Assembly (NCBI GenBank): GCA_015487695.1
Contig: WFPF01000117.1
Coordinates: forward strand, 1 to 36,845
Origin: Chitinophagales bacterium
GTDB lineage: Bacteria; Bacteroidota; Bacteroidia; Chitinophagales; S012-47
Length of the DNA stretch: 36,845 bases
Direction of reading: 5' to 3'
This document shows positions 3,843 to 35,500 of this stretch, piece after piece (position 1 is the first letter of the stretch; every line of letters starts with the position of its first letter). The position numbers and the translations under genes are program-made. The notes under the pieces were generated by a model, which saw nothing but the letters and a program-made list of their open reading frames with translations, searched no databases and was not told the origin of the DNA.

Positions 3843-3899
3843 TTTAACTTAAAGATAATCTGAGAGTAATATACCGGTAAGAGTATATCTCAAATTTTG
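3843..3899 (+). promoter_or_regulatory. Putative promoter region of the beta-helix T9SS gene
   Basis: Within the 176-base gap I see three elements: TTTAACTTAA at 3843-3852, the same 10-mer that occurs at 5709-5718 before the TonB receptor; an inverted repeat ATATAC-N8-GTATAT at 3869-3888; and AAATTTTG at 3892-3899, one mismatch from the -7 consensus TAnnTTTG. The 10-mer lies about 50 bases upstream of the -7-like element at both genes. Functional meaning is inferred. Confidence 0.35.
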
Positions 3900-3945: not shown

Positions 3946-5628
3946 ATGAGAGCAATTTTAGCAAGTTTTCTTCTCCTTCTTTTTTCTTCCGGCCTTCGCT
4001 CACAAAACACCGTCACAGTTAAAGATGCCGACATAGGGCCCAACGATCAGGTGACATGGACCAGCAACAATGTCTACCTGCTTGACGGATATGTCTTTGT
4101 CGATTCCGGGGCCACACTGACCATCGAAAAAGGTACCGTCATCAAAGGACTGGCCGGCAACAGCATCAGCAGCGGTGATCCGGCCTCTGCACTCATCGTA
4201 GTTTCCACGGCCAAAATCTACGCCAACGGAACGGCAGACGAGCCCATCATTTTTACTGCCGAAATTGACGATATAAATGATCCCTACGACCTGGACGAAA
4301 GCGACCGCGGGCTCTGGGGCGGGCTGATCCTTCTGGGCAGTGCCCCTCTGGGCAACTCAAGTCCCATTGCTACCATCGAAGGCATCCCCTCGACCGAAAG
4401 TCGTATCAAATTCGGTGGAAACAACGAGAACGACAACTCCGGATCGCTCACCTACGTTTCCATCCGGCACGGTGGGGCCGAGCTTTCACCGGGTGACGAA
4501 ATCAACGGACTTTCCCTGGGCGGTGTAGGAAGCGGCACCGTGCTGGAGCACATTGAAATCTTTGCCAACAAAGACGATGGTATAGAGTTTTTTGGCGGAA
4601 ACCCCATGCTCAAGTGGGCTGCAGTGGCCTTCTGTGCCGATGACGGTTTCGACTGGGATCTGGGCTACCGGGGATCAGGGCAGTTCTGGTTCTGCATTCA
4701 GGCCCTTGACGATGGCGATCACGCAGCCGAGATGGATGGAGCCAAGCCCGATGGGAACGCCATCTATTCAAATCCCACGGTTTATAATGCCACCTATTTC
4801 GGAACCGGTATCGACAACCAACAGGCCGGGGGCATTGCTTTGCTTTTCAGAGATGCTACAGCAGGGAAATACTACAATTCCATCTTTACTGACTTTGGTA
4901 ATAAAATGATTCAGGTAGAAGACCTTCCTGCCGGTTCGGGAGTCGACAGCCGGCAACGGATGGAAAACGGAGAACTCATTCTGGCCAACAATATCTTTTT
5001 CGGTTTTGGCAATTACAGCACCCTCAATGCCGACCTCAATACGGGATACATACAATACACATCCGGTGCAGAAGACAGCAGTTGTCAGTTTCTGATCGAC
5101 CACTTCAACAACCATAACAACAGCATAGTCGATCCGCAGATCGGAGGAATCAGCCGCCTGCCCGATGGCGGACTGGACCCGAGGCCTTCTGCAAACGGTC
5201 CGGCTACTCAGTCACTGGCCGCCTATCCTTTCAGCTCCTTCTTTACGGAAGTCAACTACAAGGGCGCCTTCGACCCGACCGCCACCGGCACCTGGGCAGA
5301 CGGATGGACCGCGCTCTCATCTTACGGATATCTGAAAACCTTTGTAGGGATAGACAGGAACAAGCCGGCTGATTATGCCATGAGCGAGATCAGCCCCAAC
5401 CCGGCTCAGGGATCTGTTTCTTTCACCCTCCGGTCTACAGGCAGCAAAAACGTAGACATTGAAGTACTCAGTACCTCCGGCCGGGTGATGATGCAACGCA
5501 GCGAGCAACTCGGCCCTGAATCGAAGCAGCGGATTGAACTCGACCTGCAATCATTCCCTGCCGGAATTTACTTCATCCGCGTCAGCAACGGAGCTTCCTC
5601 CATTAGCCGGAAAGTGCTCCTTTTCTGA
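3946..5628 (+). CDS. Secreted beta-helix-like protein with T9SS type A tail
   Basis: A 560-residue protein with a signal peptide (MRAILASFLLLLFSSGLRSQ). The body has the look of a right-handed parallel beta-helix: YLLDGYVFVDSGATLTIEKG, VIKGLAG, AKIYANGTADEPIIFTA, LWGGLILLGSA, LEHIEIFANKDDGIEFFGG, a register typical of stacked rungs. Acidic loops (DIDDINDPYDLDESD-like, ALDDGDHAAEMDGA) could hold calcium. The C-terminal ~80 residues from EISPNPAQGSVSF to SRKVLLF are a T9SS type A sorting tail. It lies directly upstream of a TonB-dependent receptor on the same strand, but a strong hairpin separates the two. The pairing suggests a surface protein that feeds or assists the receptor; the substrate is unknown. 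Confidence 0.87.
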   Translation: MRAILASFLLLLFSSGLRSQNTVTVKDADIGPNDQVTWTSNNVYLLDGYVFVDSGATLTIEKGTVIKGLAGNSISSGDPASALIVVSTAKIYANGTADEPIIFTAEIDDINDPYDLDESDRGLWGGLILLGSAPLGNSSPIATIEGIPSTESRIKFGGNNENDNSGSLTYVSIRHGGAELSPGDEINGLSLGGVGSGTVLEHIEIFANKDDGIEFFGGNPMLKWAAVAFCADDGFDWDLGYRGSGQFWFCIQALDDGDHAAEMDGAKPDGNAIYSNPTVYNATYFGTGIDNQQAGGIALLFRDATAGKYYNSIFTDFGNKMIQVEDLPAGSGVDSRQRMENGELILANNIFFGFGNYSTLNADLNTGYIQYTSGAEDSSCQFLIDHFNNHNNSIVDPQIGGISRLPDGGLDPRPSANGPATQSLAAYPFSSFFTEVNYKGAFDPTATGTWADGWTALSSYGYLKTFVGIDRNKPADYAMSEISPNPAQGSVSFTLRSTGSKNVDIEVLSTSGRVMMQRSEQLGPESKQRIELDLQSFPAGIYFIRVSNGASSISRKVLLF

Positions 5629-5645
5629 GTAAAATATCACATCAT

Positions 5646-5679
5646 AAAAAGAGGCTCTCTGAATAGGAAGCCTCTTTTT
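5646..5679 (+). terminator. Rho-independent terminator after the beta-helix gene
   Basis: A perfect 11-bp stem, AAAAAGAGGCT (5646-5656) pairing with AGCCTCTTTTT (5669-5679), with a 12-base loop; the right arm ends in five T's. It begins 17 bases after the stop codon and separates the beta-helix gene from the TonB receptor. Confidence 0.85.
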
Positions 5680-5690
5680 CTATGTCTGTA

Positions 5691-5718
5691 CTTAACCATT
5701 CCTTAACCTTTAACTTAA
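5691..5718 (+). promoter_or_regulatory. PHO-box-like tandem repeat before the TonB receptor
   Basis: CTTAACC occurs at 5691-5697 and again at 5702-5708, exactly 11 bases apart, and is followed by TTTAACTTAA at 5709-5718. Tandem direct repeats with an 11-bp period are the binding pattern of PhoB-family winged-helix regulators, and CTTAACCT-N3-CTTAACCT is the form described for cyanobacterial PHO boxes. A PhoB-like regulator is encoded 6.5 kb away (12190-12870). The regulator assignment is inferred. Confidence 0.5.
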
Positions 5719-5761: not shown

Positions 5762-5769
5762 TATTTTTG
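5762..5769 (+). promoter_or_regulatory. -7 element before the TonB receptor
   Basis: TATTTTTG is a full match to TAnnTTTG, 17 bases before the chosen ATG at 5787. No TTG stands at the -33 spacing, as would fit a promoter that needs an activator bound at the upstream repeat. Confidence 0.45.
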
Positions 5770-5786: not shown

Positions 5787-8636
5787 ATGAAAATCAAAGC
5801 GTTACTCGGTTTTTTTCTGATCTTTCTCACCACCACACTTCTTGCCCAGCATGCCACAATAAAAGGAACGGTGACAGATGCCGAAAGCGGTGAAACGCTC
5901 ATTGGAGTGAATGTGATCATTAAAGATCCGTTTATGGGCTCCAATACCGACCTGAACGGACACTACGAAATCAGCAGGGTGCCGGCAGGCAGCTACGACA
6001 TTCAGTTTTCATACGTTTCGTATTCCCCCCAGATAATTAAAGGTGTGGAAGTGCTGCCCGGAAAGGAAATTGTGCTGGACGTAAGCCTCAGCCCCGAATC
6101 GATGGGCCTGGATGAAGTGGTGATCAAAGCACGCAAGATTGACAACACCGAGAATGCCATTCTTTCGATGCAGAAAAGATCCCTTTCGGTGCAGGATGGT
6201 ATTTCGAGCCAGGAGATGAACCGCTTTGGAGTGAGCAATGCCGCTCAGTCGGTCAGGAAAATTACCGGAGTGAGCATTGTGGACGGGAAGCACATCAATG
6301 TGAGGGGCCTGGGTGACCGCTACTCCGGAGCACAGCTCAACGGAGTGACCCTCAACAGCACCGACCCGTACAGCAACAGTGCTTCTCTCGACCTGATACC
6401 GGCCAATATGCTGGAGAAAGTAATTGCCAGCAAAACATTCACACCTGACATGCCGGGCAACTTTACCGGAGGCAATGTGAACCTGACTACCAAATCATTC
6501 CCCGAAAGCAGATCTTTTCGCGTGAGCCTGGGCAGCGGCTACAATACACAATCCAGTTTTAACAGCGAGTTCCTTTCATTCGATGCCGGCCGCTATGCCT
6601 TTGCAGGATACAATGACGGCAGCCTCTCGCTTCCGGCATTGCTCGCTGACGAAGAAGTAAGAAACGAGCTCAGCAACGACATCTATATCAAAGCCAGGCG
6701 CAACGAAAGCTATGCAAAGCTCCTCGACCAAAGCATCAAAAGTGTTCGCCAGCAGATGGCCCCGGCTGAGCAGAACGCTCTGGGCAACTACAGCTTCAGC
6801 ATCTCTTATGGAAACAGTTTCAAACTCTTTGGCCGCGATTTTGGCGTTCTCATTGGAGGAAATGCGGGGCGCACCCTCACCCATTATGCCAATGGCAGCC
6901 AGGCAGCATGGGACATTACCGGACTTGAAGCACAGTCACTCTTTCCCTTTTTTCAGCTGAACGACATGCGCAGCATCTCAAATCCCCGCATCAACGGGCT
7001 GGCAACATTAAGTTACAAACTGAGCGAACACCACGAACTGGGCATCAACCTGCTCTACAATCACGATGCGCAAATCACAGGGCGATATCAGAAGGGCCCG
7101 GCTCCCGGTTTTATCTCGGCTTCCAATGCCCTGTTTGAAACACGCACCCTGCAGTTTATGGAGCGTGGCCTCAGCAGTTTCCAGCTGAGAGGAAAGCACT
7201 TCTTCCCCGCTCTGGGAAAACTAAAAGCAGAGTGGATCGGAGGCATGACCCGTTCTTTTCAGGATGAGCCCGACCTTCGCTTCTTTGCCAATGAGGTCCG
7301 CGACTCGCTCTACCTGATCCGCGTTTCGGAGTATTCGCTGCCGGCCCATTTCTTCAGAAATCTGCAGGATGAAAGCAAAGAGTTTAAGCTTGACCTTGAG
7401 CTCCCGCTGTCGGCTAAGAATTCATTCAATAAATTCAAATTCGGTGTCCTCGCCAATGAAAAGAATCGCGTCTTCAGCGAATACCGTTTTGATGTCAACA
7501 ATGCCAAGGGAAGAGCCTATAACGGAAATCCCGAAGATTATTTCGCATCTGACAATCTCGGCATCATCGGCTATGATTCGATGCGTCATCGTAACATCAC
7601 CGGCCTTTACCTGGTCAACAATACCCGGGCTTCCAACAATTATCGCGGCAGCCAGCGCATCTATGCCGGCTATGCCATGTTTAGCTACGAGCTCTTCAAT
7701 AAACTGAAGATAGCCGGTGGCGCGCGCCTCGAAAGGACGGAGATCAACGTACAAAGTGAAGACAGCACCCTGCAGGCAGGGAAAATAGATGAAAATGACC
7801 TCCTGCCCGGTATCAACCTCATTTACCCGTTGACGGAAAACATGAACCTCCGTGCTTCGGTCAGCCGGACCATCGCCCGGCCCAGCATGAGGGAGCTCGC
7901 TCCTTTCTCTTCCTTTGATTATATCGGTGGTTTTATCTACATCGGGAATCCGGATCTGAAGCGAACACTCATCAGCAACTATGATTTGCGCTGGGAATGG
8001 TTTATCCGTCCGGGCGAAGTGCTGGCTGTCAGTTCTTTCTATAAAAAATTCAACGATCCGATCAGCAAGTTTTACAATTCCGAAGCTTACAATCCGGAGA
8101 TCATCTATCAGAATACCTCCACGGCTTTTGTTTACGGTTTGGAGTTTGATTTCAGAAAAAAACTGGACTTTATTCACCCCTTGCTGAAAAACTTCAAGCT
8201 GGGCAGCAACTTTACTTATATCGTTTCGCGGGTGGATATGGAAGCCGGAGAATACGAGATTCTCAGCAGCATCAACCCCGAGCTGAAGCCTTACCGGCCC
8301 TTTCAGGGTCAGTCGCCCTACATCATGAATGCCATGCTCTCTTATGATGCCGACTCGGCAGGCATACATGCTATGCTGAGCTACAATGTCTTCGGTCCGC
8401 GCCTGAGCGAGATAGGCCGCGAAGGGGTGCCCGATATTTACGAGCGACCCCGCCACATGTTGAATTTTAAAATATCCAAAAAAATAAGCAGCCGCTTTGA
8501 GGCCAAAGTGGAAGCCCAAAACTTGCTGAATGCCGCCTATTTAAAAAGCCAGCAGTTCAAAGGGCGGGAATATGTCACGGAGTCGTATCAGATCGGACGC
8601 AGCTTCAACATCGGGCTTAGCTACGTATTAAAATAA
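5787..8636 (+). CDS. TonB-dependent outer-membrane receptor
   Basis: The start is taken at the ATG at 5787 (949 residues), which gives a compact signal peptide MKIKALLGFFLIFLTTTLLAQ; an in-frame TTG at 5781 would add two residues. Domains in order: a carboxypeptidase-regulatory-like domain (~23-105, ATIKGTVTDAESGETLIGVNV), a TonB-box-like stretch near LDEVVIKA, the plug (~125-235: SAQSVRKITGVSIVDGK, INVRGLGDRYSGAQLNGV, GGNVNLTTK) and a ~22-strand barrel ending SFNIGLSYVLK. Such receptors import ligands too large or scarce for porins using TonB energy. No SusD partner is present; instead a secreted beta-helix T9SS protein lies upstream. A PHO-box-like repeat before it suggests phosphate control. 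The ligand is unknown. Confidence 0.95.
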   Translation: MKIKALLGFFLIFLTTTLLAQHATIKGTVTDAESGETLIGVNVIIKDPFMGSNTDLNGHYEISRVPAGSYDIQFSYVSYSPQIIKGVEVLPGKEIVLDVSLSPESMGLDEVVIKARKIDNTENAILSMQKRSLSVQDGISSQEMNRFGVSNAAQSVRKITGVSIVDGKHINVRGLGDRYSGAQLNGVTLNSTDPYSNSASLDLIPANMLEKVIASKTFTPDMPGNFTGGNVNLTTKSFPESRSFRVSLGSGYNTQSSFNSEFLSFDAGRYAFAGYNDGSLSLPALLADEEVRNELSNDIYIKARRNESYAKLLDQSIKSVRQQMAPAEQNALGNYSFSISYGNSFKLFGRDFGVLIGGNAGRTLTHYANGSQAAWDITGLEAQSLFPFFQLNDMRSISNPRINGLATLSYKLSEHHELGINLLYNHDAQITGRYQKGPAPGFISASNALFETRTLQFMERGLSSFQLRGKHFFPALGKLKAEWIGGMTRSFQDEPDLRFFANEVRDSLYLIRVSEYSLPAHFFRNLQDESKEFKLDLELPLSAKNSFNKFKFGVLANEKNRVFSEYRFDVNNAKGRAYNGNPEDYFASDNLGIIGYDSMRHRNITGLYLVNNTRASNNYRGSQRIYAGYAMFSYELFNKLKIAGGARLERTEINVQSEDSTLQAGKIDENDLLPGINLIYPLTENMNLRASVSRTIARPSMRELAPFSSFDYIGGFIYIGNPDLKRTLISNYDLRWEWFIRPGEVLAVSSFYKKFNDPISKFYNSEAYNPEIIYQNTSTAFVYGLEFDFRKKLDFIHPLLKNFKLGSNFTYIVSRVDMEAGEYEILSSINPELKPYRPFQGQSPYIMNAMLSYDADSAGIHAMLSYNVFGPRLSEIGREGVPDIYERPRHMLNFKISKKISSRFEAKVEAQNLLNAAYLKSQQFKGREYVTESYQIGRSFNIGLSYVLK

Positions 8637-8641
8637 GGGGA

Positions 8642-9481
8642 TCAACTCTCGAAGACCAGTATCGGGATGCTTGCCACGCGCAGCAAATCTTTCGAAACGC
8701 TCCGCCCCAGGATCATCCCCAGAAAATTGCGGTGGCGGTGTTTCATTGCCAGCATATCGGCATCACTCCTCTCCATATAGGCAATGAGGGCAGCCACCGG
8801 GCTCTCCCCTTCCAGAAATTCATAGTGTATATTCTCCTGGCCGAAAAGGCGCTTAACCAGTTTTGTGAAGTTCTCAACTTCTTCTGGGGCGGCTTTCCCC
8901 TCTTCCACATCCACATGCACGATTTCCAGCGTAGCTCCCATTTCCTCTTTCAGTTCCACAAGGGTTTGCAAATCCAGATCGTCCATGGAGTGAAAATCGA
9001 TGGCATAGGCAATTTTTTCAATGCCCCGGTAGCTGTAGGACCCGGGCACTACGAGTACGGGCCGCTCCGACTTCGAGACCAGTGAGGCCGTATGATTCCC
9101 GAAAAACAAATCTTTCATTCCGGCATATCCGTGGCTGCCTGCCACGATGAGATCTGCCTGCAAGTCGTCCGCAGCCATCAGGATGGCATCGGCTACCAGC
9201 CCTGAGCGCATCTCTTTCCGGACTTCGGGCATATCGAGATCAGGCAGTTCTTCCCTTATTCTCTGCAGGGCATGCTCCATCTCCTTCATTACCTCGGCCT
9301 CAACTTCTTTCCAGATCTGATCCATCAGATCGCCCGGAGTTTGTGCGAGGAAGGCTTCCGGCTCCGTGACATGCACCAAGGTCAGCTTCGCCTTTAAATC
9401 AACGGCCATTTGGACGGCATAACGCAGTGCGTTGTGGGCATTCTCAGAGAAGTCAGTGGCGACCAGAATATGATTGAGCAT
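8642..9481 (-). CDS. Universal stress protein, tandem UspA domains
   Basis: A 279-residue cytoplasmic protein made of two UspA folds (~1-145 and ~150-279). The first begins LNHILVATDFSENAHNALRYA and ends with the nucleotide-binding signature G-x2-G-x9-G (GSHG...FFGN), with Asn in place of the final Ser/Thr; the second begins IEKIAYAIDFHSMDD and ends with KHRHRNFLGMILGRSVS, which lacks the glycine signature. UspA proteins support survival under starvation, oxidative or anaerobic stress, often binding ATP. It is the last gene of a minus-strand cluster with two more tandem UspA proteins and a metal transporter. It converges on the TonB receptor gene, five bases between stops. Confidence 0.93.
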   Translation of the reverse strand: MLNHILVATDFSENAHNALRYAVQMAVDLKAKLTLVHVTEPEAFLAQTPGDLMDQIWKEVEAEVMKEMEHALQRIREELPDLDMPEVRKEMRSGLVADAILMAADDLQADLIVAGSHGYAGMKDLFFGNHTASLVSKSERPVLVVPGSYSYRGIEKIAYAIDFHSMDDLDLQTLVELKEEMGATLEIVHVDVEEGKAAPEEVENFTKLVKRLFGQENIHYEFLEGESPVAALIAYMERSDADMLAMKHRHRNFLGMILGRSVSKDLLRVASIPILVFES

Positions 9482-9494
9482 GATAAACTATCTT

Positions 9495-10253
9495 TTATAC
9501 AGTACCAACAATGGATCGAAGAAGATCACCTACATAATAGGCCACGAGTGCGGCCACCGTACCCAGCATGAGCGTTTCGATGATGCTGCGAATCCGTGAT
9601 GCATGGGTCACGTAGCTTTTCAGGAAGCCAATGAAGATAAAAGCCAGGCCCGTAAACAGCGAAGAAAGCAGGAAGAGCCGGGCAGGCGGCATCTCGTAAA
9701 AATAAGATACCACATAGCTCATCAGGGGAATAAAACCAACCAGCACAAAAGCCGAGAAGGTAGCCAGGGCCGTCTTCAGCGGAGAAGCTGCCGGATACTG
9801 CAGATTGAGCTCTTCCTTCATCATCACATCGACCCAGCGGTCGCGGTCGGCCGTGATCACATCAACTACTTTTTCCAGCAAATCCCCTTCAAAACCTTTT
9901 GCTTCATATATTTCCCTGATTTCATCTCTTTCCTTGTGCGGAAGATTATCTACCTCCCAGTATTCGACCTCTTCCTGCCGCTTGTATTCATCAATTTCCG
10001 CTTTTATCGAGAGATAATTGCCAATAGACATGGACAGTCCGTCAGCAAAGAGGTTGGCAAAGCCGAGGATGAGGACCACCCCGATATTCAAGTCGGCACC
10101 CACCGCACCCGCCACCACCGCAAAAGTGGTCACACTGCCGTCCATGCCGCCATATACAAATTCGGCCAGATACTCGCGCAGCCCGCCAAAGCCCGCACGA
10201 CCGTGAATGTTGTCCTCGAATTTTTCTCTTTTGATTTTTTCTGTTCTACTCAT
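9495..10253 (-). CDS. VIT1/CCC1-family metal transporter
   Basis: A 252-residue membrane protein. The ATG at 10253 is preferred to a TTG at 10259; it overlaps the stop of the upstream stress-protein gene by eight bases, so translation is probably coupled. The family signature is clear: an N-terminal helix pair YGGMDGSVTTFAVVAGAVGA and ADGLSMSIGNYLSIKAE with the Asp and Met used in metal transport, a charged cytosolic stretch rich in Glu (~80-150, RDEIREIYEAKGF...MMKEELNL) that binds metal in CCC1/VIT1 relatives, then three more hydrophobic helices. Relatives move Fe2+ or Mn2+ out of the cytosol. Placement among stress proteins suggests a role in iron or manganese detoxification during stress; the metal is not determined. 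Confidence 0.88.
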   Translation of the reverse strand: MSRTEKIKREKFEDNIHGRAGFGGLREYLAEFVYGGMDGSVTTFAVVAGAVGADLNIGVVLILGFANLFADGLSMSIGNYLSIKAEIDEYKRQEEVEYWEVDNLPHKERDEIREIYEAKGFEGDLLEKVVDVITADRDRWVDVMMKEELNLQYPAASPLKTALATFSAFVLVGFIPLMSYVVSYFYEMPPARLFLLSSLFTGLAFIFIGFLKSYVTHASRIRSIIETLMLGTVAALVAYYVGDLLRSIVGTV

Positions 10254-11085
10254 GAGCAATAAATATGGGTACCGAATTGGACCGGATCAATTTTTTTCCG
10301 GTGCTGGGCTTAAACAATTGCGAAAACGCATTGCGCCCAAACGCTCCCATGACCACAATGGATTCCGGTGACATTTTTACGTAGCGCAAGAGTTCCTCCC
10401 TGGCTTTGCCCTGCAGCACTTCACGATACAAATTCTTCTTGTATCGCGTCAAATACTGCATCATTTCCGCCTCATAAGGAACCGCTTCTCCCTCTTTGCG
10501 CACCACCGTGATCAGGTTGGCTTTTGCCGAAGCTACCAAATTCGGAAATAAATAGAGGAACTGACGAATGGCAAAAGAGGAAGAGGAAGAGCCGTCAAAT
10601 GCAAAATTAATCAGCTTCAATTCGTGAAATTGCTCGGGGACCACAATGACCGGTGAATGGGTATGGCTCAGCAAATCCGAAACCAGGCGCATATCGCCCT
10701 GTATGCTGAGATTCGAGAAATAAGTTACCGCCCCGATGATGAGAATATCTGTAAACATGGAACGATCAATGAGCTCGACACCGGGTACTCCTATTTCATG
10801 TTCCGCCTCGCAATGCACACCGCTTGCACGACAGCTTGATTCAAATTTGGCTACATTTTCTTCGATCGACTGCCGTGTACTGCTTTTCAGCTCCTCGAGC
10901 ACCTCATCGGCTATACCAATCACATCGGGCGCTTCGAATATCGGGCTAAACTGATGATAGGCACTCACATCCTCCAGAAATACACCTTCGATCATGGCCC
11001 CTTCCGATTTGGCCAGCTGAATGGCATAGCGAAGGGCCGCATCCGAATAGTAAGATCCATCAAAGGCTAAGAGAATGTGTTTCAT
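10246..11085 (-). CDS. Universal stress protein, tandem UspA domains
   Basis: 279 residues, two UspA folds: MKHILLAFDGSYYSDAALRYA at the N-terminus and KLINFAFDGSSSSSFAIRQFL from about residue 155. Neither half has a full G-x2-G-x9-G(S/T) signature: the first has only GAVTYFSNL and the second has GAFGRNAFSQLFKPST, with Pro where the third Gly should be. It may therefore belong to the group of Usp proteins that do not bind ATP. The second gene of the cluster, it lies nine bases after the upstream Usp gene and overlaps the transporter gene. Cysteine residues near SSCRASGVHCEAEHE in the first half are unusual for the family and might sense redox state, which is only a guess. Confidence 0.9.
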   Translation of the reverse strand: MKHILLAFDGSYYSDAALRYAIQLAKSEGAMIEGVFLEDVSAYHQFSPIFEAPDVIGIADEVLEELKSSTRQSIEENVAKFESSCRASGVHCEAEHEIGVPGVELIDRSMFTDILIIGAVTYFSNLSIQGDMRLVSDLLSHTHSPVIVVPEQFHELKLINFAFDGSSSSSFAIRQFLYLFPNLVASAKANLITVVRKEGEAVPYEAEMMQYLTRYKKNLYREVLQGKAREELLRYVKMSPESIVVMGAFGRNAFSQLFKPSTGKKLIRSNSVPIFIAHE

Positions 11086-11094
11086 GGCCCGGGC

Positions 11095-12009
11095 TTAAAT
11101 GTTCATCAAAATATCCAGTAATTTAAGGGTTTCTCCTTTTCGTTTCATCACAAATACAGGGATCTTTTTGGTAATCCGAAGCAGTTTTTCGGTTGTGCTC
11201 CCCAGCACGATGCTCGAAACCATGGAATGTCCGCGGGCACCGATCAATATCAGGTCACAGTTCTCGCGAATGGCCTGTTCGTGTATTTTTTCTGCCGGAT
11301 TATGCTCTTCACCCAGGACAATCACGGGCTCCAGCTTCAGTTTTTCCAGCTTATTGTTCTTGACAAATTTCTCGAATTCCCTTTCTGCATTTTGCTTCAT
11401 GATGCCGGCAAACTCTTCATAGCTTTTCCCGGTGGAATAATAGCCAATGGGAACATGGTAGACGTGAAGCGCTACGAGGCGGATCTCAGGAAATTTTTTA
11501 CGAAAGAACATGGCCTCGCGAAATGCCATGGCCGAATAGTCTGAAAAATCAGTGGGCATCAATATGGCATCCATCTGCAACTCGGGTCGGGGAGGAATGA
11601 AGATGACGGAACAGGGGGCCTTGCGACTGAGACGGTGGGCCACAATGCCGGCTCCCTGGCGTTCGTCTTTCTTTCCTACGATCACCAGATCAATGTCGTT
11701 CATTTTCGTAAACTTTAAAATCTCATTGAAGGGATTCCCTCTGAAAAGATGAGCACTCAAATTAAGGCGTGTATCGGGTTTCCGTTCGTAGGCCTTGTGC
11801 ATGATCTCGCTCCTGAACTCCTCATCCGACTCGAAGCTGGCGTCCAGCTCTTCCAGCACATCCAGCTCGTGTATTTCTTCCTGCACCACGTGGAGCAGGT
11901 CTACACTTTCCGCTTCGAGCACTTCGGCCAGAAAGAGCCCGTAGCGAAGCAGTACTTCGTCCATCTCGCTGCGATCCAGCGCGATCAATACCTTCCTGAT
12001 GTCTTTCAT
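11095..12009 (-). CDS. Universal stress protein, tandem UspA domains
   Basis: The ATG at 12009 (304 residues) puts the family start MKDIRKVLIALDRSEMDEVLL at the N-terminus; the frame stays open 81 bases further but that extension has no UspA similarity. The first fold runs to ~150 (IVGKKDERQGAGIVAHRLSR, signature degenerate); the second begins LQMDAILMPTDFSDYSAMAF and ends with a perfect nucleotide signature GARG-x9-GS (IGARGHSMVSSIVLGSTT), so this copy most likely binds ATP. It is the first gene of the minus-strand stress cluster and is divergent from the PhoB-like regulator gene, with 180 bases between them. Confidence 0.9.
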   Translation of the reverse strand: MKDIRKVLIALDRSEMDEVLLRYGLFLAEVLEAESVDLLHVVQEEIHELDVLEELDASFESDEEFRSEIMHKAYERKPDTRLNLSAHLFRGNPFNEILKFTKMNDIDLVIVGKKDERQGAGIVAHRLSRKAPCSVIFIPPRPELQMDAILMPTDFSDYSAMAFREAMFFRKKFPEIRLVALHVYHVPIGYYSTGKSYEEFAGIMKQNAEREFEKFVKNNKLEKLKLEPVIVLGEEHNPAEKIHEQAIRENCDLILIGARGHSMVSSIVLGSTTEKLLRITKKIPVFVMKRKGETLKLLDILMNI

Positions 12010-12112
12010 GATTAAAATGTTTTTCCAAAAATGAACACTTCGAAGATCAATTGAAATGACTTTTATCAAGGAAAGGGATTCCATGCGCATTGAGGCCGTG
12101 GAATTGCTTTCG

Positions 12113-12132
12113 TTAACATTGCATTAAAGTTG
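12113..12132 (+). promoter_or_regulatory. 11-bp tandem repeat before the response regulator
   Basis: TTAACATTG (12113-12121) and TTAAAGTTG (12124-12132) are seven-of-nine matches exactly 11 bases apart, about 60 bases ahead of the regulator ATG. The spacing and the TTAAC core resemble the repeat before the TonB receptor (5691) and would suit autoregulation by the PhoB-like protein. The divergent stress-protein genes share this region. Candidate only. Confidence 0.35.
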
Positions 12133-12189
12133 AAATAAGCCCTTCTTAATTTGCTTATTGTAAATTCGCAATAACCGATAATCAACTTC

Positions 12190-12870
12190 ATGGCAAATTC
12201 CAATCTCAGCATTTTGGTTGTGGATGACGAACCCGATATCCTTGAGTTTATTAAATACAACCTTGAAAAAGAAGACTTCCGGGTGGTATTGGCCCGCAAT
12301 GGCCTGGAGGCGCTGAAAAAGGCAGAGGAGATAAGGCCGAATCTGGTTTTGCTTGACATCATGATGCCCGAAATGGACGGCATCGAGACCTGCCGGCAGT
12401 TGCGGTCATTGCTGGGGTACAAAGACACCCTCATTGCTTTTCTCACCGCACGCAATGAAGACTTCACACAAATTGCCGCCTTCGATGTGGGAGCCGATGA
12501 TTATATCACCAAACCCATCAAACCCCGGCTTTTGCTCAGCAGGGTAAAAGCCCTGCTCAGAAGGCATGCCGAAGAGAGTCAGGCCAACCTCATCGAAGTG
12601 GGACCCCTCAAGATTGACCGCGAGCGTTTTGTGGTGAGCATCCATGAAAAAGAACTCGTGCTGCCGCGAAAAGAGTTTGAATTGCTCTTTCTGCTGGCCG
12701 GCAAACCCGGAAAAGTCTTCAAACGGGAAGAAATACTGAACAAAATCTGGGGAAAAGAAGTGATCGTGGGAGACCGGACGATAGATGTTCATATTCGAAA
12801 ACTGCGCGAAAAGCTGGGTGACAAGATTATAAAAACAGTCAAAGGCATCGGCTACAAACTGGACCTCTGA
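12190..12870 (+). CDS. PhoB/OmpR-family response regulator
   Basis: 226 residues. The receiver domain (1-~120) has the acidic pair Asp12/Asp13, phosphoacceptor Asp56 (VLLDIMMPEMDG), Thr86 (FLTARNE) and Lys108 (DYITKPIKP). The C-terminal winged helix (~130-226) has VLPRKEFELLFLLAGKPGKVFKRE-type sequence and GDRTIDVHIRKLREKLGDK, IKTVKGIGYKLDL, the DNA-recognition signature of OmpR/PhoB proteins. Such regulators bind 11-bp tandem direct repeats as dimers, and repeats of that kind occur before this gene and the TonB receptor. The stop overlaps the kinase start by one base (TGATG), so the two are translationally coupled. PhoB identity is likely, but the specific signal is not proven since no pst or phoU genes are in view. 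Confidence 0.93.
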   Translation: MANSNLSILVVDDEPDILEFIKYNLEKEDFRVVLARNGLEALKKAEEIRPNLVLLDIMMPEMDGIETCRQLRSLLGYKDTLIAFLTARNEDFTQIAAFDVGADDYITKPIKPRLLLSRVKALLRRHAEESQANLIEVGPLKIDRERFVVSIHEKELVLPRKEFELLFLLAGKPGKVFKREEILNKIWGKEVIVGDRTIDVHIRKLREKLGDKIIKTVKGIGYKLDL

Positions 12871-13910
12871 TGAAAAACCCCACGCCCCGGCAGATAGCAC
12901 TTTACAGTGCGCTCTTTACGGCCATCGTGGTATTTGTCCTCGTTCTGGCCATCCAGCTCATTACAGGGCGGCTCAAGCCCATCGAAGCCCTGCTTGCCTC
13001 CGTTTTGATTATTCCGTTCACCTATGCCCTCAACCGCTACCTGCTCAACACATTCATATACCGGAAGGTAAAGCTCATCTACAAAAATATTCATGAGCGA
13101 AAGCGCGATCCGAAATTGCGCCAAAAGCTGACCCTCCACGACAACATCCTCGATGAAGTGGAACAGGAAGTCATGGAATGGGCCGATGACAAAGCCCGAG
13201 AGATCAAAGAATTGCAGGAAAGGGAGAAATACCGGAGAGAATTTATCGGCAATGTTTCGCATGAGCTCAAAACACCCATCTTCAATATCCAGGGCTATCT
13301 CCACACGCTGATAGACGGAGGAATCAATGATGAAAAAATCAACCTTGACTACCTCTACAAGGCGGCCAACAACCTAGACCGTCTCGATCAGATCGTGGAA
13401 GACCTGGAGGTCATTTCTCTTCTGGAATCGGGGCATCTGTCCATGCAAATGGAAAAATTTGACATTCACAGCCTGGCCCGGGAAGTGATGGAATCGTTGG
13501 AGCTGCAGGCCGACAGCAATGACGTGATGCTCGGATTCAAGAAGGACAGCAATAAGAGCACCCTGGTAATCGGTGATAAAAAACGCATCCGGCAGGTGCT
13601 GACCAATCTCATCAACAATGCCCTGAAATACAGCCGGGAGAACGGGCGCTGCCAGCTTGGATTCTACGATATGGATGAATATGTGCTCATTGAGGTCTCT
13701 GACAACGGCATCGGTATTGATCAGAAACACCTGCCCCGCCTTTTCGAACGCTTCTACCGGGTAGACAAAAGCCGTTCGCGGCACGAAGGCGGCACCGGAC
13801 TGGGACTGGCAATTGTAAAACACATCATAGAAGCCCACGGACAAACGATCAACGTCCGCAGCACACCGGGTGTGGGATCCACTTTTGGCTTCACACTAAA
13901 AAAAGCTTAG
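12870..13910 (+). CDS. PhoR-like sensor histidine kinase
   Basis: 346 residues. Two membrane helices (~10-32 and ~38-58) with almost no loop between them, so no periplasmic sensor domain; this is the short PhoR-like layout, in which the signal is thought to be sensed within or beside the membrane. A charged linker (~65-120) leads to the dimerisation/phosphoacceptor helix with His131 (FIGNVSHELKTPIFNIQGY). The ATP-binding domain has N box NLINNALKYS, G1 VSDNGIGID, F box LFERFYRVDKSRS and G2 GGTGLGLAIVKHI. It phosphorylates the preceding regulator. The stop codon TAG overlaps by two bases the stop of the outer-membrane gene on the other strand. Confidence 0.93.
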   Translation: MKNPTPRQIALYSALFTAIVVFVLVLAIQLITGRLKPIEALLASVLIIPFTYALNRYLLNTFIYRKVKLIYKNIHERKRDPKLRQKLTLHDNILDEVEQEVMEWADDKAREIKELQEREKYRREFIGNVSHELKTPIFNIQGYLHTLIDGGINDEKINLDYLYKAANNLDRLDQIVEDLEVISLLESGHLSMQMEKFDIHSLAREVMESLELQADSNDVMLGFKKDSNKSTLVIGDKKRIRQVLTNLINNALKYSRENGRCQLGFYDMDEYVLIEVSDNGIGIDQKHLPRLFERFYRVDKSRSRHEGGTGLGLAIVKHIIEAHGQTINVRSTPGVGSTFGFTLKKA

Positions 13911-29252: not shown

Positions 29253-29513
29253 TTAGCGGATCAATATAAAGTTTCCTTGTCTTTGGCTCAAATTGCCTAC
29301 CTGGTCACGCACTTCCAGTATATAGATGTAAGTACCCATGGGCATGGGTCTGCCGCCCATGCTGCCATCCCATCCCTGCATCGGGTCGTTGGTCGAGAAG
29401 ACCAGATTGCCCCAGCGGTCGAATACTTTCAGATGCAGCAACTCGAACAAATCATTGGCTCCAATGCTGAACCAGTCATTCTTACCATCCCCGTTGGGCG
29501 TAAACGCATTGGG
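29253..29513 (-). other. T9SS type B (CHU_C) sorting domain of the giant protein
   Basis: The last 86 residues: PNAFTPNGDGKNDWFSI, LKVFDRWGNLVFS, GWDGSMGGRPMPMGTYIYILE and GNFILIR. These are the invariant landmarks of the gliding-motility-associated C-terminal domain, which directs export by the T9SS; proteins with type B tails use a different attachment/processing route from type A proteins. Confidence 0.93.
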
Positions 29514-32500
29514 AATATACAATTCAAGATAGGGCACCGGAATCACCAGTACCGAATCAATTGTAAAGCAATTGAATTCATTGAATCCGGTCACATAATA
29601 CAGGACTGTATCCTCGGGCTGAACCGTAATGAAATTATTTCCCGAATCAACGATGGCAATGCGGGGACTCCACTCATAACGGGCAGCCCCTTCTACTGTG
29701 AGTGTCGTCTTCGAGCCGAAGTAAATATAGATGTCATCGGATGCTCCGATTACCGGTGAAGGTTTCACTTCGACTAATATCGTATCGCTGTTGTAGCAGC
29801 CGTTGCTGTCTACAATCTCTACTACAAACGTCTGTGTCTGCGAAGGAATCAGGGAAGGATCGGCTATAGTCGGATCATCCAATGGCCCGGCAGGACTCCA
29901 GTTATAGCTGACTCCGTTTTCAGCATGCAGTACCAGGTCCTGATATTCGCAGATAATAGTGTCCGGCCTTGCATTCGGGTCCATCGGGATATAGACTTCG
30001 ACATAGACACTGTCCCTTGTAAAGCAACCGAGTTCATCGCTTACTTCTACATGATAATATCTTGATTGAGTGGGTGTAATGACTGGATTCGGAATATTTG
30101 CATTGCTGATTTCCATGTCAGGCCACCACAAATAGTTCAATCCGCCCGAAGCTTCGAGCACAAGGCTGAGTGCCAGACAGACGCCTGTATCAGGGGTGAT
30201 CGTAACTACGGGCAAAGGACGCACATCGACCCGCACATTATAGAAACGATAGCAACCTTTGTCCGTAAATCCCTGCACGGTATAGACCGTAGAGACGGCC
30301 GGTGAAGCGACCGGATTGTCGCAGCTCAGGCAAGATAAATCGGGATTGGTCACCCATTGGTAATAGGCACCTCCGCTTACCCGCAGTCGGGCTGAATCTC
30401 CTGCACAAATAATGGTATCGGGGGAAAGCTGTATGGCATCAGGTTCGGGGTTGACAATCACCTGCACCGTATCGGTCAAAGTACAATTGTACTGATTGTA
30501 CCCTGTCACAATGTACGCGGTGCTCACATCGGGCGCAATGACCGGATCGGGACAGTCATTGCAGGTTACGAAGCGGGTTCCCTGCCATATGAAACTGTCG
30601 GCACCGGTAGCAAACAACTGAATGGTATCATCCCAGCAAATGGCTGTATCCTCACCCGCATAGGTGCTGGGCAACGGGTTGACCACAATCAGCAGGGTTG
30701 TATCGCTGCTACAGGCGTTTTGATCAAGTACAGTCAGTGAATAATTAATGGTATAGGGCGGACTGGCTACCGGGTTTGCAATATCAGGATCGCTAAGGCC
30801 CAGCGCAGGTGTCCATTTGTAATTCGTTCCGCCACTGGCGCTAAGTTGTGTCGACTCCCCAAAGCACAAGGTGTCCTTCGTAACACTGATTACTGCCACA
30901 GGAAGCGGGTTGACTGTAATCAGCACCGAACCCGTATCTACACAACCATTGCTATCCGCCACAATGGCCATGTACTGAGTCGTAGATAAAGGAGTAGCCA
31001 CCGGAGTCGGGCAGTTTGCACAAGACAAGTTGCTGTCCGGTGACCAGGTGTACTGTGAAAAGCCTTTGGCAAAGAGCGTGATACTTTCTCCTGCGCATAT
31101 TCCGGTATCGGCAATGAAGTTGCCCGGTTGCAAGACATTCACCACCAATTTGAGGGTATCTTCAAAAGGACAACCGTTGGTATCCACTCCTGTGATCGTG
31201 TAGACGGTCGTCAGATCCGGGAAAGCAAGCGGATCGGCAATATTCGGATTGCTCAGGCTGGAGGCCGGTGACCAGTTGTAGATGGCTCCACCACTGAAAA
31301 CCAATTGTGTGGTATCGCCCTCGCATAAATGGGGCGGATCGGTATATGCGGTATGTGGTGGCGGGTAGACATGAATATTGACCGTGTCACTGTCCACACA
31401 TTCATTATTGTCTATTCCGATAACTACATAATCTTTGCTGACTGTTGGATAGATTACAATCGATGAGCAGGAGCTGCAGGACTTAGAGGTATCATCAAGC
31501 CATATATACTGGCTGGCACCCGATAAGTTCACAATTACGGAATCACCGGGACAAAGCTCCTGATCATTTCCTGCTGAAACGGTGGGCAACTGGTTCACAA
31601 AAACAGTGACTTCATCGCTCACCTTACAGCCGTTCGTATCTCTTCCTGTCAGCGTGTAGGTATTGGTCACCCGTGGCCAGGCAAGCGGTGATTCACAGCA
31701 TTGGCAACTTAGCGTGGAGTCCTGCATCCAGATAAAACGGCTTCCGTTAACGGCTTGCAGCATCACTGTATCGCCCGTACATATGGTCGTATCGGGTCCG
31801 GCACTCAGACCTGCCACAGGTTTCACCAGGATGCGAATGGTATCCCACACCGTACATTGCGTGATGCTGTCATAGAGCGTCAGCGTGTAGGTCGTATTCA
31901 CCGATGGAGTGGCATAGGGATACTGCGAATTGGGATCAGACAAGGAAGAGGCCGGTGCCCAGCTAAAGGTAGCCTGCCGTGTGTTGGTTTCAGCGACAAG
32001 TTGCGTAAAGTCGTTGGCACAAATTACATCCTTTTCAGCAAGCAGACGCAGCTCGGGCAGTTCCGTATATACAATCACGGTATCGCTTTCCACGCAATAT
32101 TTGCCTTCGGAAGAAATGGTCAGAGTATAAGTCGTGGTCTGATTGGGCGAAGCGGTGGTATATGGCGATGTCGGATCTTGCAAGCCGGTCGGAGGCGACC
32201 ATTGAAAGGTTGGCTGAAAGGAGACATTCTTGAAGGTCGGGCTCATCGACACACTGGGACTTGTGCATTTGCGCAAAGGGTCTCCCGCATCAATGATGGG
32301 TCGGTCGTTTGGCACTACCACCGTCTTATCTCCGGCTTTGCAGCCAAAAGCATTGATGGCTGTAACGGAGTACTGCCTGCCGATACTCGGAAAAAGAAGC
32401 ACCTTGTCAGGCGATCCCGTATGCCGCAAATCAATCTCGGGCTCCCAAATAATGGTGCTGGCTCCTGAATCATCGGCTTCGAGCAGAAGCGTATCGTTTT

Positions 32501-35500
32501 TACAGAGAAATACATTCTTCGGAAGATCAATGGTCGGAGACGGATTGATGACGATATCCTTTATAATCTGTGCCTTACAGCCCGTATTTGCAAAGACATC
32601 CAGTGTGATGGTTTTCACTCCTTCACTGTTGTATTTGTATTTCGGATTTTTTTGTTGTTTAAAGTCCGTGGGTGTAAACTTCCAGTTCCAGGCAATGATT
32701 TTCCCGTTGACCGGATTGGTAGAATCCTTGAAACGTATGGTCTGGCCCGAACAAAGGGGTTCTGAGTATGAAAAGTTGGGGATCGGGGTTTTGTATATTT
32801 TCACAATCATCTGATCCATATCCATGCAGGCTGCACCGGGCTCTGCGTACAACGTTACCAGATAGGTCCCTGTATCGGGATAGGTGAATGTAGGACTGTA
32901 TTCCGATGAAGTATCGCTGGCCACACCCGGTATTCCGAAATCCCAAAGGAAGGAATCTGCCTGACCGGTATTCAAGAAGTGGATGGTATTGTCCACGCAA
33001 TTAAGTATCAATCCGTTGGGTGTGCCGTCATTGTCTTCAATCGTTGCGACCGGTTGCTTCGTACAATTCACAATATTTACCTGAATTTCCCTTCGGATAT
33101 TACCAAGAAAGCGTCCGTTCTTATATTCTTCCGTACAAGTCGTCAGCACATGGGCTCCGGGCGTATTAGGAACCCCTGTCAGCAGTCCTGTCTTTCGATC
33201 AATTTTCAGTCGCGGGTTCGAGCTTGCCGGATAATGCGAACTCAGGCCCGGGGCATAGATCACTGAATCAAACGGGGGCATCCAGGAACGGGTATAGGGG
33301 CCTCCGGCAAGGGCCGCACAGAAGGTATAGACCAGCGAATCCTGATCCGGATCATAGTCATTGGAAAGGGGCTTAGCTACTAGGCTTTTGCCCGAATGCG
33401 TATGCCAGTAATCATTCAGCGCTGTTGGTGTAATATTAACTGATTGCACAATCTGAATGTAAACAGTAGCCGTATCACAACCCAAATTATCACAGACCTC
33501 ATAGACAAACTGATCCGGCCCGGTATAGCCCGGTGTGGCGTTGTAGTTTATCGCACCCTGCTCGGCCAATGCGGTCCCTTGACTTGGCGGAGTAATTACC
33601 GATAACGTATACCCTGCCGTTTCACGATCGCGGTCAAAGTCGTTCTCAAGTACATATATTCTCCTGAAGTATCCCTCGTACACATCTACGGCATCATCAT
33701 GTGCGGTAATAGGATAGGACGTGTCGCGGATCTCAAAATAGGCATAGGCAGTATCACAATTCCACCGGGCAGGGCTCTCGCATACCAGATACTTCAGGGT
33801 ATCATATCCAAAGAAATTCTGGTCTGCCATGTAATAAAGCAGGCCGTTGTTTTCAATAAAGGCGTCTCCGTTCTTGGTGTAATTCACTATGCGGTAGCTT
33901 GAAGGATCCACCGCACCATCGTTTTGTTTGATGTCGTATTCCCCAAAATCATTCTTAAAGATGGTGAAGTAATCATCCACGGCAAGAGTTACGTTGGGAT
34001 CTTTAGCTACCCATAGATATACACGGGCCGTGGATTTCATCACGGGGTTGGCGGCATCTGCTATTTGATAATCAAAGGAATCGCGACCAAAGTAATTGTT
34101 ATCCGGGTGATAAATAACCTGACCATCGACCAGGTTATATATGTAGCCATGGACCGGATTGACCGTAATGCGTACTGCGGCCGGATCCAGATTGCCATCC
34201 GGATCAGAATCATTGGCAGCCAGATTGATCTTGCGCGGTGTGTTGAGTTGTATGTTAAACTGATCATTGGCCGCAACGGGTGCTGCATTTGAGCTCACAT
34301 TGATTTGAACCGTAGCCGTACGGCAGTAGATGGACATCCCGTCATCGCATACTCGGTAAGTAAATTGATCCGGCCCGGAGTAGGTGTTGTCCGGTTTATA
34401 AATCATGCCGCTGTCAACCAGTACCGTAATATCACCGTGAAGCGGTGCGCTGACAATCTCAAGCGTAGCCCTTTTTATTCTGCCGTCCGGGTCCAGATCA
34501 TTCTTCAGCGGCTGAAAGAAATAGGGCCGGCCATAATCAACCGAGATGGCATCATTGTTTATCTGTGGAGGAACGTTGTAATTCAGGTTGATAGTCACTG
34601 TAGCACTCCCGCATTTCTTGGGTGTACCGTCATTGCATATGGAGTAGGTAAACTGATCTGTGCCGGTTGGCGATGAATCCGTGGGATAGTATACAAAGCG
34701 GTTTCTGAAATCGATGATAGCCAGACCGTAACCGGGCGGAGTTACGAGGCGGAGTGTTTGTTCGTCCAGCTTTCCTGAAGCGATATTGTCATTTTTAAGT
34801 ACCCGTATGGGGGTAGGCCCAAAGGCAGAAATAGTGACAGCGTCATTGTTGACCTGCGGGGGATCATTCGATATAACGGTGATTCGCACCCATGCCTCGT
34901 CACAACGGCTTGGAACGCCATTGTCGCAAATCCGGTAACTGAAGGAGTCCAGTCCGGCAAAACCCGGATCGTGCTGGTAAAGTATCTCTCCTTTCTGACT
35001 TACAAAAACCTGTCCGTGCTTAGCCGGCACCACAATATCAAATGATTCGAAGCTGATATTGTTTTCCGGGTCTACATCATTTTTGAGCAGATCTATAATC
35101 GCAAAGGTGTTCTGCCCAATCTTCTTGCGGTCATCTACCGCATTAGGCGGTAAATTGATGATTGTCGCATTGACATAAATAGTAGTTTCATCGCAGTCGC
35201 CATTGTCATCACAAATCCGATAGCTAAACTGATCCGGTCCTACATAACCGGAATCCGCCTGGTAAGTAAAACTCAGATCGGGATTGATCGTAGCTGTTCC
35301 ATTGAGTGGAGGCACGGTAATAACTACCGACCCGAAATCCAGATTCTCATTAAACACATGATCGTTGAGCAGCGGATAAATACTGTGCGGGAAAAAACAA
35401 TACGGGTCCATGGTGTCAGATGCTGCGAAAGGCAGGTAGTTGTTCGCTTTTACGAAAATCTCAATGCGGGCCGTATCACATTTTTGCGGGCTGCCATTGT

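Follow-up and report, generated by a model that had tools for sequence, protein, structure and literature searches.

The window, i.e., the whole 36,845-nt stretch of DNA analyzed here, is one contig (C117) of a 2.77-Mb genome assembled in 137 contigs (98.7% complete). On the forward strand, it encodes a TonB-dependent receptor of 949 amino acid residues (5787–8636), which carries CarboxypepD_reg, Plug and barrel domains and is related to TIGR01782, and, upstream of it, a secreted beta-helix-like protein of 560 residues (3946–5628) with a C-terminal T9SS sorting domain. A terminator-like hairpin with a U-tract follows the beta-helix gene (about 5646–5679, forward strand; fold z = -4.1); its loop exceeds what the short-loop terminator pattern scan covers, and neither that scan nor a sigma-70-type promoter scan yielded anything useful. 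Further downstream, a response regulator of 226 residues (12190–12870, forward strand; Receiver and Trans_reg_C domains) adjoins a sensor histidine kinase of 346 residues (12870–13910, forward strand; HisKA and HATPase domains). The neighbors of the receptor gene are the beta-helix gene and a Usp gene: the interval up to the regulator pair (8642–12090, reverse strand) holds genes for a Usp protein, a VIT-family metal transporter (VIT1) and two more Usp proteins, and the idea, drawn from the gene sizes, that this stretch was a pst operon was rejected on these identities. An ORF of 2530 codons (29253–36845, reverse strand) runs past the end of the window.

The tandem repeat in the receptor promoter and two box arrays

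Positions 5691–5718 of the forward strand read CTTAACCATTCCTTAACCTTTAACTTAA. Two exact copies of CTTAACC (5691–5697 and 5702–5708) are spaced by 11 bp, with TTAAC at 5692 and 5703, and form the candidate Pho box of the receptor promoter (5691–5708); they are followed by TTTAACTTAA (5709–5718), a further degenerate TTAA-rich stretch that is kept in the same-genus genome G004. This reading agrees with the preliminary description of an exact 11-bp repeat followed by TTTAACTTAA. A -7 element of the Bacteroidota type, TATTTTTG (5762–5769, forward strand), is located 70 bp from the first box and 25 bp before the receptor ATG at 5787. No TTG was found ∼19 bp upstream of it, and the -7 element thus lacks a -33 partner, as had been proposed. 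Given the hairpin after the preceding gene, the repeat appears to sit in the receptor's own promoter. When up to two mismatches were allowed, CTTAACCNNNNCTTAACC had a single occurrence in the window, where 0.11 would be expected from shuffles, and its exact form occurred once in the 2.77-Mb genome.

A weight matrix built from 56 sites, all from outside the window's family, was used to scan 73,642 window positions. The receptor site ranked first with 22.3 bits, a score that is not fully independent of the finding because part of the training set was picked with the TTAAC pair itself. The next score was 9.2 bits, at 12113 before the regulator gene, and position 3844 before the beta-helix gene ranked sixth (5.4 bits); unlike the receptor-site score, these two ranks are independent of the finding. 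At both places, the forward strand carries four boxes with an 11-bp period. The array before the beta-helix gene (3844–3881; TTAAC, ATAAT, GTAAT and GTAAG at 3844, 3855, 3866 and 3877) is kept in G004, and it absorbs an earlier claim: the 10-mer TTTAACTTAA does recur at 3843–3852 as described, although as part of the four-box array that starts at 3844. The array before the response-regulator gene (12113–12150) reads TTAAC, TTAAA, ATAAG and TTAAT at 12113, 12124, 12135 and 12146; the regulator-gene arrays are kept in G004 and G039, and autoregulation is predicted from this sequence. The first box of each array lies 48 bp ahead of a -7-like element with one mismatch (AAATTTTG at 3892–3899 and TAAATTCG at 12161–12168, both on the forward strand). 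Four TAA cores with an 11-bp period were found only at 3844 and 12113 in the window, against 0.017 expected, this form having been picked after the arrays were seen; the 48-bp spacing derives from other genomes.

Conservation, helical phase and the genes preceded by the repeat in relatives

The 28-mer was found unchanged in G004, whose receptor is 91% identical, while the flanking sequence differs. Together with the first rank given by the matrix trained outside the family, this argues that the repeat at 5691 is not a chance pair of 7-mers. In G077 (receptor 48% identical) the corresponding sequence is CTTAACCATTTGTTAACC, and in G011 (L051; receptor 51% identical) an 11-bp pair precedes the receptor gene in reverse orientation. 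Reverse-strand pairs were also seen before several other receptors.

Among 87 receptor homologs from the order, the window's receptor counted in, TTAAC pairs spaced by 11 bp were present within 300 bp upstream of 15, compared with 0–3 at any other spacing; mononucleotide shuffles of the 200-bp receptor upstreams gave 0.075 such pairs on average. Other ORFs of the same loci also showed an 11-bp peak (14 of 696 upstreams versus 0–1 at spacings 7–15), with 8 pairs at the 22-bp spacing, and several of those with 11-bp pairs are beta-helix, phoB, alkaline-phosphatase or further genes of the same clusters. Against this stands family f18, in which most of the closest full-length homologs have no obvious box directly before the receptor gene. 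A scan with an exact three-box pattern returned 66 matches, not far above its reversed control, and two of them stood immediately ahead of receptor homologs.

Across the retrieved loci, the first box was separated from TAnnTTTG by 26 bp in 11 cases, 37 bp in 12, 48 bp in 22 and 70 bp in three. Of the 63 distances between 26 and 140, 50 fell in one class modulo 11, in a set of rows that are not independent, since orthologs and overlapping pairs were counted. With such a fixed helical phase, the repeat would take the place of an upstream promoter element. With its 70 bp, as in G039, the receptor site is distal: it is in phase but lies beyond the usual 26–48 bp, which counts against the Pho-box reading.

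Whether the repeat precedes phosphate genes had been put forward as a test of the Pho-box reading, and the outcome was favorable. For pstS genes of the order, which were gathered by family without use of the motif, TTAA(C/T) pairs peaked at 11 bp (10 of 29 upstreams). A gene-blind scan with CTTAACATTNNCTTAACATT, one mismatch allowed, gave 64 matches in 396 genomes. At 18 of the 30 loci examined, the match preceded a recognizable phosphate gene: DUF47/PhoU_div (Pit-accessory) in eight, two confirmed by Pfam and the remainder assigned by evident sequence similarity; an OprP-type porin in three; the receptor in two; and, once each, a Na/Pi cotransporter, a purple-acid-phosphatase-like gene, a beta-helix gene, PhoB and pstS, the PhoB and beta-helix genes being identified by sequence reading. 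Sizeable numbers of matches also came from the reversed pattern used as a control, many of them in family f8 genomes, so the argument rests on gene identity and not on the raw match count. In genus g28 of that family (G064, G109, G121, G137, G141, G145 and others), the reversed pattern was enriched, with up to six matches per genome, which suggests another repeated element of their own. As expected of a Pho box, then, direct repeats with an 11-bp period (the CTTAACC pair here, the order-wide peak elsewhere) were found to precede phosphate-acquisition genes in relatives and, as described below, a Na/Pi gene in the window's own genome.

The phosphate genes of the genome and the products of the locus

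In the genome that contains the window, no PstB over the cut-off, no PstS, no Pit and no OprP-type porin were found, and linked pst-phoU genes are accordingly absent; as the assembly is a draft, the absence of Pst, Pit and OprP is likely but not certain. The only Pi-transporter gene found encodes a Na/Pi cotransporter fused to a C-terminal PhoU domain. Upstream of this gene, the site CTTAAGATTGTCTTAACC starts 87 bp before the ATG and scored 21.2 bits with the weight matrix. The gene lies divergent from a PF01663 gene (G000:C113:4850-6760; L005, L233), with the Pho-box-like site between them, and the PF01663 protein is read, from its sequence and family, as a PafA-like phosphatase. A third strong site (22.9 bits with the same matrix) lies before a DUF922 gene, for which no link to phosphate is known; this counts against the Pho-box reading. 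A sequence-only covariance model gave two matches in the genome, the receptor site and the DUF922 site, and missed the Na/Pi site; its best match (G000:C43:4782-4803; L057 around 2284–2310) lies a few bases before the DUF922 gene, in the opposite orientation. Over the whole genome, the bare repeat showed no excess over the reversed control, so the regulon in this genome is small.

The preliminary description had placed a PhoB/PhoR-like pair nearby. The domains of the two proteins bear this out, although the curated cut-offs were missed: the regulator scored 220.1 bits against a cut-off of 296.2 for the NCBIfam PhoB model and 210.9 against 270 for RespRegPhoBBctds, and the kinase scored 241.4 against 334.2 for PhoR and 264.3 against 400 for PnpS. 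The regulator is therefore called PhoB-like and not PhoB, and the kinase PhoR/PnpS-like. PhoB models are nevertheless the closest families of the regulator, and no second close homolog occurs in its genome (E ≤ 1e-40). An ortholog with 64% identity has boxes 72 bp upstream.

A beta-helix homolog was found near the receptor in 83 of the 87 loci of the order. In a phylum-wide search for the beta-helix family, 65 of 80 named loci had a receptor homolog, and the upstream peaks at 11, 22 and 33 bp appeared again; Neolewinella, Lewinella and Saprospira grandis are among the carriers of this family. The structural model of the beta-helix protein (pLDDT 88.5) contains many short strands, consistent with a beta-helix; Foldseek TM-scores were low except for small domains, T9SS sorting domains among them. 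Searching PDB sequences returned no relative of the receptor and, for the beta-helix protein, only a weak match to a sorting domain. In some relatives (L093, L098 and L102), the beta-helix protein has two or three tandem copies of the whole domain. A SusCD/PusCD reading of the receptor was rejected (62.6 bits with the SusC model against a cut-off of 368, and no SusD). Since the same repeat with the same helical spacing precedes known phosphate-uptake genes across Bacteroidota, the receptor is probably, as judged from sequence, a phosphate-scavenging importer.

Regulatory model, alternatives and known systems

The repeat at 5691 is very probably the docking site of a phosphate-starvation regulator, as the preliminary description had supposed; the pstS peak, the gene-blind scan and the 21.2-bit Na/Pi site all support that Pho-box reading. 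For the whole model, in which a Pho box and a PhoBR-like pair control the receptor, the beta-helix protein and the regulator, we put the probability at about 0.87. The site, its conservation, the genes that it precedes and its phasing relative to the -7 element were computed; from these, we infer the binding by the regulator, the induction, the division of labor and the substrate as follows. Under phosphate starvation, the PhoR-like kinase (12870–13910) would phosphorylate the PhoB-like regulator (12190–12870), which would bind both TTAAC half-sites from one side of the helix, given their 11-bp spacing. As the receptor promoter has a -7 but no -33 element, the bound regulator would be needed for recruitment of RNA polymerase. 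The regulator would also act at its own promoter (12113) and at the beta-helix promoter (3844), and this common control would induce the receptor, the surface beta-helix protein and the regulator together. The beta-helix protein, exported by the type IX system, would capture a phosphorus source with the receptor and move it across the outer membrane, and the Na/Pi cotransporter, encoded elsewhere in the genome and likewise preceded by a box, would carry phosphate across the inner membrane.

Among the other explanations, the one that survives best, while still unlikely, is that the regulator binds the site and the receptor imports something else, e.g., a siderophore or a vitamin, and is merely co-regulated. 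The sequence does not reveal the substrate of the receptor and no related solved structure was found; against this reading, the receptor is paired with the beta-helix family in 83 of 87 loci, and the described pairs of this kind are tied to phosphate starvation (PMC8115612, PMC2996285). Distinctly less probable is an operator of another OmpR-family regulator with a similar TTAAC repeat, ArcA-like, that answers a non-phosphate signal. The scores of the regulator and the kinase below the PhoB and PhoR cut-offs would fit such an operator, as would Riemerella anatipestifer PhoP, described as a broad regulator of many genes, whose motif was found to resemble that of E. coli ArcA most closely (PMC9603813); the box-sharing genes in relatives are nevertheless pstS, DUF47, OprP-type porin, Na/Pi, phosphatase and PhoB genes, and the regulator is closest to PhoB models and without another close homolog in its genome. 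A functionless chance arrangement in an AT-rich promoter, which the single such site in the window and the lack of excess of bare repeats over reversed controls in the genome would allow, is hardly credible and was rejected on conservation, spacing and phasing, given that G004 keeps the site exactly, that the spacing peaks at 11 bp among 87 promoters, that the boxes are in phase with the -7 element and that the outside-trained matrix ranks the site first.

Beyond the Pho-box reading of the single locus, we tentatively propose, at somewhat short of even odds, that a single Pho box, with CTTAAC(A/C) recurring every 11 bp in phase with the -7 element at 26, 37, 48 or 70 bp, is common to Bacteroidota, and that some members, this lineage included, have a stripped regulon without Pst, Pit and OprP, which would consist of the TonB receptor and T9SS beta-helix protein at the outer membrane and the PhoU-fused Na/Pi cotransporter at the inner membrane; the latter may replace Pst-PhoU as the phosphate sensor of PhoR. 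Such a box would provide a major phylum with an operator consensus of its phosphate regulon that can be tested; in the open-access papers searched, no more than the TTTAACA core of a single regulator was found, and no description of a phylum-wide consensus or of the -7 phasing. The very common, uncharacterized receptor/beta-helix pair would become a predicted phosphate-scavenging system, and in genomes where a PhoBR-like pair occurs without Pst, the mechanism of phosphate sensing is directly testable.

The candidate box can be compared with several described ones. In cyanobacteria, the SphR Pho boxes are CTTAACCT, 8 bp with a 3-bp linker (PMC1906773), and the early remark that the repeat is near the cyanobacterial form holds: the half-site is nearly the same, and the 11-bp period and the use of a PhoB-family regulator are shared (PMC1906773). 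In contrast, cyanobacteria belong to another phylum, with at least three boxes there versus two strong ones here, and the repeat here is phased to a Bacteroidota -7 element. The E. coli PhoB box also consists of 8-bp units with 3-bp linkers, repeated directly with an 11-bp period near the promoter core; its half-site, however, is cited as CTGTACTA (PMC1906773), and it lies 10 bp from the -10 element, whereas the receptor site is 70 bp away from its -7 element. Within the phylum, Bacteroides fragilis PhoB binds the pstC promoter (PMC3547664). R. anatipestifer PhoP, another regulator of the PhoB family, recognizes in vitro a motif whose core is TTTAACA, and in gel shifts it bound the promoter of a TonB-dependent receptor as well as that of its own operon (PMC9603813); it resembles the present case in phylum, regulator family and TTTAAC core, and the available part of that report was not found to mention 11-bp repeats, phosphate genes or phasing to a -7 element.

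A close counterpart of the receptor pair is found beside the Flavobacterium johnsoniae phoBR genes, in an operon in which the receptor Fjoh_0545 and the IPR011050 lipoprotein Fjoh_0546 (FII) are upregulated at low Pi by 8.0 and 9.9 log2 units, respectively (PMC8115612). By domain description and genome context, this pair resembles the present one, a TonB-dependent receptor with a pectin-lyase-fold (IPR011050) surface protein beside phoBR; Fjoh_0546, however, is a lipoprotein, whereas the protein here has a T9SS sorting domain and its gene precedes that of the receptor, and here Usp and VIT1 genes intervene before the regulator pair is reached from the receptor gene. Flavobacterium FI and FII are related to the low-Pi lipoprotein of Caulobacter, ElpS (PMC8115612), which is induced by phosphate starvation and whose gene co-occurs with that of the receptor CC0171 (PMC2996285). 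The locus thus matches both modules in pairing a TonB-dependent receptor with a beta-helix surface protein, and its likeness to ElpS/CC0171, a phosphate-starvation surface protein with such a receptor, again concerns domain description and genome context. Unlike the protein here, ElpS is a lipoprotein released with the help of a type II system (PMC2996285), and CC0171 was reported as constitutive (PMC2996285), which counts against an induced receptor. The box, the regulator pair and the receptor/beta-helix elements are of known kinds; what may be new is the consensus common to Bacteroidota, together with its -7 phasing and the set-up without Pst.
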